64,000 bases of DNA from Candidatus Bathyarchaeota archaeon (lineage in GTDB: Archaea; Thermoproteota; Bathyarchaeia; JAPDIZ01), in contig JAPDIZ010000005.1 of assembly GCA_029259355.1 (NCBI GenBank), positions 1 to 64,000 of the forward strand, written 5' to 3'. Numbering within the stretch: the first letter of the stretch is position 1; every line of letters starts with the position of its first letter. The translations under genes and the position numbers were made by a program. This document shows, piece by piece, positions 32,364 to 38,316 of this stretch. The notes under the pieces were generated by a model. It did not search any database. It had not been told where the DNA came from and saw only the letters and a program-made list of their open reading frames with translations.

Positions 32364-32455
32364 TGGCGGGCCCGGAGGGATTTGAACCCTCGACCTCTGG
32401 CTTTCTCCAACACCTTCCGAAGGCCAGCGTCCTAGTCCAGCTGGACCACGGGCCC
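32364..32455 (-). tRNA. tRNA-Arg (UCG) with canonical intron
   Basis: Acceptor GGGCCCG/CGGGCCC; D arm GUCC/GGAC; anticodon stem CUGGC/GCCAG. The loop starts CUUCGG, giving anticodon UCG, and is interrupted after position 37 by a 14-base intron (32403-32416), the canonical archaeal place. T arm GAGGG-UUCAAAU-CCCUC. CCA encoded at 32364-32366. Confidence 0.9.
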
Positions 32456-32475: not shown

Positions 32476-32646
32476 TGGTCCCGCGGGCCGGATTTGAACC
32501 GGCGACACTCCGGTTTCTGTCGGCCTGGTAGGCTGCGAACACCGCCCAATTGGGCGGAGTCTACAGCCGGAAGCTTTCTGCGGGCTAACCGCCCTCTACC
32601 AGGCTCCCCACACCCCCGCGTGGGGCGTGTTCTGAGCTACCGCGGG
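32476..32646 (-). tRNA. tRNA-Tyr (GUA) with three introns
   Basis: 171 bases including an encoded CCA. A perfect 74-base tRNA appears when three insertions are removed: 28 bases in the D loop (32604-32631), 20 bases near position 25/26 (32574-32593) and 46 bases after position 37 (32515-32560). Their sum, 94, exactly explains the excess length. The mature form has acceptor CCCGCGG/CCGCGGG with C1-G72 and discriminator A (archaeal Tyr identity), D stem GCUC/GAGC, anticodon stem UCCGG/CCGGA with loop CUGUAGA, and T arm GCCGG/CCGGC. Introns 1 and 3 contain strong internal hairpins. Confidence 0.88.
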
Positions 32647-32749: not shown

Positions 32750-32874
<125 letters not shown>

Positions 32875-35033: not shown

Positions 35034-35585
35034 CTACACCGTCAACTCAGAAGCGGTGTAGTAAACGACCTCGCTCCTCCTATCAACTACGGCGAACACG
35101 AGTTCTCTCTTTAAGCTCTGAATTCTCTTGAGCAGCTCCCAGACTCTCTGAACGGGTATTGGGCTTCCCTCACAAATCCCCACAACAATGTACTTAGCAG
35201 GGGCTTTCCCATACTCCCCCCGCTCGTAAACTCTGAAGTCGAGCCCAAACCCAAAGCCATTTCTAACCACATACCCCCTCTTCCTGAGGTCGCGGTAGAT
35301 GAGATATCCTATCCACAGATCGGGGTTGTGCTCCCCCAATAAGCTGAGAAGCTCGAAGAAGCTCAGCGCCTCCCCTCCCTCTGAGCGGACAACCCTTATT
35401 CTGCCATCCTCGAGTAGGTATAGGGCTTCGTATGGAGACAGCTCGTAAGCTCCATCCTCACGCTTAACCCCATAACCCCTCTGCTCGAAATAGCTGGCAA
35501 GCTCCTCATCTGGAAATGCGACGACTTTTCCACTCTCCAGTCTAGCGGTGCTTGGGCGCTTCGCGGTCTCTCCCTCTCTAGACAT
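35034..35585 (-). CDS. endA: tRNA-splicing endonuclease family subunit, probable structural type
   Basis: 183 residues from ATG at 35585; a frame to 35699 overlaps the divergent gene and is unlikely. The C-terminal half has the EndA pattern: YLIYRDLRKRGYVVRNGFGF, then DFRVYERG with the catalytic-type Tyr, and ELVFAVVDRRSEVVYY. The expected catalytic His before the next strand is absent (GKAPAKYIVV, where HxKYLV is normal), and the Lys before LVFAVVD is Arg-Glu. Loss of two of three catalytic residues is what the structural subunit of the two-gene (alpha-beta)2 enzymes shows. A catalytic partner should be encoded elsewhere. Leads the operon with ubiA and hisS. Confidence 0.82.
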   Translation of the reverse strand: MSREGETAKRPSTARLESGKVVAFPDEELASYFEQRGYGVKREDGAYELSPYEALYLLEDGRIRVVRSEGGEALSFFELLSLLGEHNPDLWIGYLIYRDLRKRGYVVRNGFGFGLDFRVYERGEYGKAPAKYIVVGICEGSPIPVQRVWELLKRIQSLKRELVFAVVDRRSEVVYYTASELTV

Positions 35586-35637
35586 GGTTGTGGAAGAGTT
35601 ATTATGGGGGATTGCTTTAAACTGTGCGGGCTTAGCC

Positions 35638-36135
35638 ATGGAGAAGCTCTTCGAAGAGCTTTGCAATTGGCTGAGGGGATTTGAGAAGCTAGTGATCATG
35701 GGTATTGGAAACCCGCTTAGAGGCGACGACTTCGTTGGGGTTGAGGTGGCTAAGAGGCTGAAGAAGCTGATGAGTAGAGAATGCGTAGTTGTTTACGAGT
35801 GCGAAACCGTCCCCGAAAACTTTCTGGGAAAAGTCGAGGAGGCCAAACCTAGCCACGTGCTCTTGATAGATGCAGCTGCCATCGGCTTGGAAGCTGGTGG
35901 GATGAAGCTAGCAGACCCCAAGAAGGTGCTGGGCCACACCATCTCCACCCATGCAATACCCCTGAGGGTTTTGGCAGAGTACATAGAGGAGACTACGCGA
36001 GCTAGGGTGATGCTGCTGGCTATCCAACCTCTGATTCTGGGGTTTGGAGAAGGTCTATCGCCAGTTGTTGAGGAAGCTGCTGAGAAAGCCGCGCAGGCGT
36101 TGGTAAAAGCTATCGAAGAATGCTGGGGGAAGTGA
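35638..36135 (+). CDS. Hydrogenase maturation protease, HycI/HyaD family
   Basis: 165 residues from ATG at 35638, chosen over a frame that begins inside the divergent endA region. LVIMGIGNPLRGDDFVGVEVA holds the first Asp; LLIDAAAIG and HTISTHAIPLRVLAEYI hold the later acidic and His ligands that sense nickel in this family. The enzyme trims the C-terminus of the large NiFe-hydrogenase subunit after metal insertion, so the organism should have a NiFe hydrogenase. gttattat at 35600-35607 is a plausible TATA element. The 3' end overlaps the mtnA start by 4 bases. Confidence 0.85.
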   Translation: MEKLFEELCNWLRGFEKLVIMGIGNPLRGDDFVGVEVAKRLKKLMSRECVVVYECETVPENFLGKVEEAKPSHVLLIDAAAIGLEAGGMKLADPKKVLGHTISTHAIPLRVLAEYIEETTRARVMLLAIQPLILGFGEGLSPVVEEAAEKAAQALVKAIEECWGK

Positions 36136-38207: not shown

Positions 38208-38316
38208 GCGGGGGTTCCCGAGCCAGGCCAATGTCTGGGCCGAGACGGCTAGAGGGGCAGGACTTAAGATCCTGTGGCATAGGCCTTCGCGGGTTCAAAT
38301 CCCGCCCCCCGCACCA
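38208..38316 (+). tRNA. tRNA-Leu (UAA) with one intron
   Basis: Acceptor GCGGGGG/CCCCCGC, D arm CCC/GGG with the long Leu loop, anticodon stem CAGGA/UCCUG with loop CUUAAGA (UAA), long variable arm UGGCAUAGGCCUUC, T arm GCGGG/CCCGC. A 21-base intron lies at the D loop/D stem border (about 38232-38252). CCA is encoded at 38314-38316. Confidence 0.88.

Follow-up and report, generated by a model that had tools for sequence, protein, structure and literature searches.

The stretch of DNA that was analysed (the window, 64,000 nucleotides) carries a tRNA-Tyr gene with three introns on the minus strand. The 171-nt precursor consists of a 74-nt mature tRNA, an encoded CCA, and 94 nt of introns. The segment of intron 3 that is complementary to the D-loop is called the clamp here. 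The features of the gene are listed below.

32476..32646, minus strand: precursor tRNA-Tyr(GUA), with encoded CCA and three introns
32632..32646, minus strand: exon 1, positions 1–15, CCCGCGGTAGCTCAG; unbroken in relatives
32604..32631, minus strand: intron 1, 28 nt, in the D-loop, with an 8-bp hairpin and a relaxed BHB; read from the sequence and missing in relatives
32596..32604, minus strand: D-loop sequence that pairs with the clamp, GCCTGGTAG; the initial G falls at the junction with intron 1
32594..32603, minus strand: exon 2, CCTGGTAGAG, covering the 3′ D-stem and most of the D-loop
32574..32593, minus strand: intron 2, 20 nt, at the D-stem border (24/25); read from the sequence, with same-site introns in two other genes (L283 and L285)
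32561..32573, minus strand: exon 3, CTTCCGGCTGTAG, with the anticodon GTA and U35 at 32563
32515..32560, minus strand: intron 3, 46 nt, at the canonical 37/38 site, with a canonical BHB (CTGT:ACAG)
32542..32557, minus strand: hairpin of intron 3, CCGCCC-AATT-GGGCGG
32532..32535, minus strand: CAGC of intron 3, complement of the GCUG (31–34) directly 5′ of U35
32523..32531, minus strand: clamp segment of intron 3, CTACCAGGC, a perfect D-loop complement
32518..32520, minus strand: ACA, 15 nt past the start of CAGC, here also within the BHB partner ACAG
32476..32514, minus strand: exon 4, positions 38–73, plus CCA

The joined exons gave CCCGCGGTAGCTCAGCCTGGTAGAGCTTCCGGCTGTAGACCGGAGTGTCGCCGGTTCAAATCCGGCCCGCGGGA followed by CCA, for which ARAGORN returned a clean tRNA-Tyr(gta) call. 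The unspliced gene was missed by ARAGORN, and Rfam found nothing in it except a weak tRNA match (19.1 bits, below the cut-off of 29). None of the other genomes among the 256 of its class belongs to the family of the window genome. In three relatives (G008, G045, and G040) the spliced tRNA is contiguous over its first 41 nt and 100% identical there, and a fourth (G035) has an unbroken 5′ half that is 100% identical over 31 nt. With the spliced 5′ half uninterrupted in these relatives, introns 1 and 2 must be genuine insertions rather than an error in reading the gene, and their joints are right as sums; the cut point of intron 1 can slide along a repeated AG, and the ends of introns 1 and 2 can shift by 1–2 nt. 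We infer that all three introns are spliced out. The preliminary description had given the lengths of the three introns as 28, 20, and 46 nt, adding up to 94 nt, and had placed one in the D-loop and one at the D-stem border. Both points were borne out by the relatives, whose unbroken exon is interrupted here by introns 1 and 2, and the intron set also by the ARAGORN call.

Intron 3 has a BHB of the standard form, with a 4-bp helix (CUGU:ACAG) and two 3-nt bulges (AG^A and AA^A). A relaxed BHB (CUC:GGG, AG^AA and AG^C, outer UAG:CUG) could be drawn manually for intron 1; for intron 2, manual inspection yielded no convincing one. L283 and L285 (genomes G434 and G429 of a distant family) also have an intron at the D-stem border where intron 2 lies; the one in L285 has a GGUA:UGCC central helix, which window intron 2 lacks. 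Introns 1 and 2 are sporadic, being absent from most relatives, and look like ordinary noncanonical introns. They would suit an account of the gene in which every intron is a neutral BHB insertion and intron 3 is complementary to the D-loop through chance or shared ancestry.

The same earlier reading had singled out the introns for being longer than the tRNA itself. The lengths are right (94 and 74 nt), and they are not unusual. Among 132 related tRNA-Tyr genes, the summed intron length ranged from 42 to 142 nt with a median of 77 nt, exceeded 74 nt in 71, and was at least 94 nt in 36. Many related genes have an intron at 30/31 besides the one at 37/38, and some have introns in the T-arm or the variable region. 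Three introns with a total of 94 nt are thus ordinary for a Bathyarchaeia tRNA-Tyr. Pre-tRNAs with two or three introns are known mostly from Pyrobaculum and Thermofilum (PMC3218864), and the present gene resembles them in combining canonical and noncanonical BHB sites. It differs from them in its host clade, Bathyarchaeia, and in the pairing of an intron with the D-loop, of which no description was found in the open-access literature searched, with subscription papers lying mostly outside that search.

The (alpha-beta)2 splicing endonuclease of crenarchaea accepts noncanonical introns. Two endonuclease subunit genes were found in the genome, the structural one about 2.4 kb from the tRNA-Tyr gene.

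35034..35699, minus strand: tRNA-splicing endonuclease subunit gene, structural type, with the catalytic His and Lys replaced
G000:C2:234461-234700, elsewhere in the genome: catalytic splicing-endonuclease subunit gene

Two different subunits would fit an enzyme of the (alpha-beta)2 type, as judged from their sequences.

Several other genes were observed around the tRNA-Tyr gene, one neighbour being an RNA polymerase B subunit gene, whose closest relatives come almost entirely from Candidatus Bathyarchaeota. At 32364-32455 on the minus strand, ARAGORN calls a tRNA-Pro(cgg) with an odd loop; removal of a canonical BHB intron (CTTC:GGAG, GG^A, AA^A) converts it to tRNA-Arg(tcg). A tRNA missed by the tools lies at 32750-32872 on the plus strand, transcribed away from the tRNA-Tyr gene. 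It is best read as tRNA-Lys(ttt), and this candidate has two introns, one in the anticodon arm and the other close to the acceptor/D border. At about 38210-38315 on the plus strand, a T-arm match accompanies a leucine-like sequence with the anticodon TAA and a probable D-region intron, a candidate missed by ARAGORN and Rfam.

Within intron 3, CTACCAGGC forms a perfect 9-bp complement to GCCTGGTAG in the D-loop of the same tRNA. We compared this arrangement in 85 distinct Bathyarchaeia tRNA-Tyr genes that had been picked by exon sequence only. The intron carrying the clamp was retained in all 85. The best 9-nt intron complement to the D-loop paired at 9 of 9 positions in 74 genes, at 8 in 7, and at 7 in 4, where the automatic register is wrong for two genes (L233, which truly pairs at 8, and L024, which is close to its neighbour L027). 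The order of the parts across genes is G37, hairpin, linker, CAGC (or UAGC or CAGU), the 9-nt clamp, mostly two free nucleotides, and ACA.

Two positions of the clamp vary. In a set of 134 genes, which was partly selected by motif and whose unbiased core consists of the 85 genes and the exon-only genes from a search of 60 genomes, position 17 pairs as C:G in 78 genes, U:A in 54, and U:G in 2, and position 20 as U:A in 95, U:G in 14, A:U in 12, and C:G in 13; neither position has a single mismatch. After collapse by genus and D-loop type, 57 rows remained, restricted to genes with at least 8 of 9 pairs so that the three weakest genes were left out, and 114 of 114 pairs were kept at the two positions. 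When introns were shuffled within families, 104 pairs were kept on average and 111 at most, and none of 5000 shuffles reached 114; the elements had been located by complementarity, which favours pairing in the observed data. Five families (f6, f10, f19, f22, and f27) each hold more than one D-loop type with the intron changed to match, indicating several independent compensatory changes. Since the pairing covaries and the mature tRNA no longer contains the intron, the pairing must matter earlier, at a stage up to and including splicing, or else in the intron once it is excised. Intron 3 is therefore very likely a conserved functional RNA element that works before its removal, as far as comparison of sequences can tell. 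Neutral insertion is excluded for intron 3 by the matched changes that five families show at two positions, with every genus-level pair intact; as an account of the whole gene we regard it as highly improbable.

To map the element beyond the class, we scanned 398 Thermoproteota genomes with a motif pattern. The element was found outside Bathyarchaeia in families resembling Nitrosopumilaceae and Nitrososphaeraceae and in further families, and nearly all matches lay within genuine tRNA-Tyr genes. Two matches lacking GCTGTAG (G435 and G470) look like chance. The exon-only search of 60 genomes again recovered the clamp, in 18 genes of Nitrososphaeria-like lineages (L294, L295, and L300-L315), and the tRNA-Tyr of Nitrosocaldus (L386) also bears it. 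Thermoproteia-like tRNA-Tyr genes in that search showed no clamp, and in them either the D-loop is shorter (AGCGGY) or the intron is short. None was seen in the readable Asgard and euryarchaeal tRNA-Tyr genes, and the motif pattern had no match in named Asgard or euryarchaeal genomes.

Some observations concern tRNA-Tyr introns outside the clamp-bearing clade. The idea of a CAGCC guide in all archaeal tRNA-Tyr introns, which arose from inspection of Asgard and Methanomethylicia genes by eye, was dropped, as shuffles of single genes gave no clear excess. In L320, L343, L344, and L348-L350, crenarchaeal-looking introns open with (U/A)CAGCC; pairing of this start with GGCUG could leave U35 in a loop of four bases. 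The introns of L345, L346, and L381 contain a strict K-turn (GA...GATGA between paired stems), a possible L7Ae site; these are 3 of 55 introns, with 1.3 expected from shuffles. L357, L358, and L380 are among other introns that look K-turn-like by eye.

The effect of the clamp on folding was modelled from the D-arm to the anticodon arm with intron 3 only, exon parts other than the D-loop being set to a common sequence. In 106 of 125 genes the nested minimum free energy fold contained seven or more clamp pairs, both at 37 °C and at 70 °C; with the element shuffled, the clamp appeared in this fold in 3 of 125 genes (37 °C only). In the nested fold the clamp takes the place of the normal D and anticodon stems, and forcing these stems cost a median of 4.4 kcal/mol at 37 °C, in models that are blind to a pseudoknot combining the normal anticodon stem with the D-loop clamp. 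The suggestion that intron hairpins keep the pre-tRNA from misfolding is thus unsupported for intron 3, in which conservation extends beyond the hairpin to the clamp that replaces the normal stems in these models. A defined order of intron removal is plausible, because the clamp must open before the normal D-arm can form.

These folds raise the possibility that the clamp is a folding or timing device with no part in modification, which would delay tertiary folding, premature end processing, or aminoacylation and set the order of intron removal. Replacement of both stems at this energetic cost and the incompatibility of the clamp with the mature D-arm would follow directly, and the choice of the D-loop as target would be accounted for with no guide role. 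Such a device leaves unexplained why the clamp is seen only in tRNA-Tyr, in a search that covered tRNA-Tyr genes, and lineages with a shorter D-loop manage without it.

Other parts of the element bear on this question. The CAGC-to-ACA distance in 129 genes is 15 nt in 112, 14 nt in 10, 13 nt in 5, 12 nt in 1, and 16 nt in 1. The archaeal H/ACA rule places ACA 14–16 nt downstream of the guide nucleotide beside the target (PMC7991803), and the 15 nt of those 112 genes falls within this range. Four genes (L232, L311, L313, and L315) have no CAGC-like sequence at the expected site. In more than half of the genes ACAG doubles as the 3′ strand of the BHB helix, so that conservation of ACA is not independent there. 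In 58 genes, a few of them borderline (e.g. GCACACAG), at least 5 nt separate ACA from the intron end and ACA is still kept; the 3′ partner of the BHB in these genes is probably a separate, later NCAG-like sequence. Apparent exceptions without ACA proved to be wrong automatic registers or L324, a gene without the element. The sequences CAG and ACAG owe their conservation in part to the invariant anticodon and the BHB; the independent evidence is limited to the D-loop clamp and the detached ACA. A folding or timing device explains neither the ACA kept where the BHB partner lies elsewhere nor the fixed 15-nt spacing. We consider this pure folding role possible, and almost as likely as the reading that we prefer, in which the fold presents U35 for modification.

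The intron was also examined for the marks of known guide RNAs. Pairing with the U35 target is one-sided, with GCUG:CAGC on the 5′ side and the hairpin following directly after G37, and the two-sided guide–target pairing of H/ACA RNAs was not found. A strict K-turn pattern was absent from all 134 clamp-clade introns, and K-loops were looked for by eye; an ordinary K-turn H/ACA RNA was therefore rejected. A box C/D guide, which would be marked by a C box RUGAUGA and a D box CUGA, was likewise rejected, as the C box RTGATGA was found in none of 138 tRNA-Tyr introns.

The eukaryotic Psi35 enzyme of tRNA-Tyr is the protein Pus7. The TruD/aPus7 of the window genome has an intact GLKDxxAxTxQ motif and is apparently intact itself, and since this motif is intact, a stand-alone enzyme could make Psi35. 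For the same reason, we rejected a missing TruD as the reason for the element. TruD was detected in 359 of 398 Thermoproteota genomes. Among the genomes with no TruD match, the tRNA-Tyr gene was read in six (G003, G017, G039, G260, G269, and G270), a small sample of incomplete genomes, and the element is present in all six. Several genomes near or above 90% completeness also had no TruD/aPus7 match, in families f19, f32, f38, and part of f39, where the absences apparently represent lineage-wide losses.

An intact TruD would make a guide unnecessary, which again suits a pure folding role. It also allows a third possibility by analogy with eukaryotes, that the clamp turns the precursor into a substrate of stand-alone TruD/aPus7 and that no H/ACA proteins take part. 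The wide occurrence of TruD and its intact catalytic motif in the window genome are consistent with this, and intron-dependent Psi35 formation in tRNA-Tyr is established in eukaryotes (PMC11408192). A review has archaeal Pus7 generally forming Psi35 unaided and mentions no intron requirement (PMC6313347), and the element also occurs in genomes where TruD was not found. We thus consider dependence on TruD alone unlikely.

Comparison across genomes established the element, its covariation and conservation, and its competition with the normal fold in nested energy models; a role of intron 3 in modification is our best guess. The reading that we prefer, with a probability of about 0.42, is that intron 3 holds the precursor in a non-tRNA fold that presents U35 for conversion to Psi35 before splicing, likely by a cis H/ACA-type reaction involving Cbf5. 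In the unspliced precursor, intron 3 would pair with nine bases of the D-loop (15–22) and with the four to five that directly precede U35. U35-A36-G37 would then lie in an internal loop beneath the hairpin of the intron, and an ACA would usually follow 15 nt downstream. U35 would become pseudouridine before splicing, most likely through an H/ACA-type (Cbf5) reaction in cis; the normal anticodon stem and BHB would then form in place of this fold, and the introns would be cut out by the (alpha-beta)2 splicing endonuclease. Presentation of U35 is favoured because the placement of CAGC 5′ of U35 and the ACA at 15 nt match the H/ACA layout, for which there is a precedent in Sulfolobales.

A stronger form of this proposal makes the canonical tRNA-Tyr intron itself, in Bathyarchaeia and Nitrososphaeria, a cis H/ACA-like guide for U35, with the D-loop as one strand of the lower stem. 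The element in the six genomes where TruD was not found fits both this form and the preferred reading. Against both stand the intact TruD, the missing K-turn, a feature that archaeal H/ACA RNAs carry, and the missing 5′ guide, since the hairpin follows directly on the 3′ side of the target. We regard this form as doubtful. If it is true, the guide would exist only in the unspliced precursor.

The element has partial counterparts in known systems. In Sulfolobales, Psi35 of pre-tRNA-Tyr is made with an H/ACA guide that is a separate RNA (PMC4652768). The likeness lies in the same uridine, in pre-tRNA-Tyr as the target, and in the 14–16 nt to ACA (PMC4652768, PMC7991803); unlike that guide, the present element is intronic, has no K-turn, and would borrow the exon D-loop as its other strand. 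The intron of Haloferax pre-tRNA-Trp is likewise an archaeal intron that acts on its own anticodon region, and is a box C/D guide for Cm34 and Um39 (PMC11408192, PMC6313347). In contrast, the tRNA-Tyr intron has no C box and has pairing with the exon D-loop and an ACA instead. The possible intron dependence of Psi35 is shared with eukaryotic tRNA-Tyr, whose intron is required for this modification; the available part of that source describes no conserved D-loop pairing there (PMC11408192).

Archaeal tRNA introns are usually treated as dispensable insertions. A covarying exon–intron helix in every sampled Bathyarchaeia tRNA-Tyr, and in Nitrososphaeria-like lineages, points to selection for a function of the precursor. 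The clamp opens a direct test of why archaeal tRNA-Tyr keeps its intron, and of whether Psi35 may depend on the intron as it does in eukaryotes.
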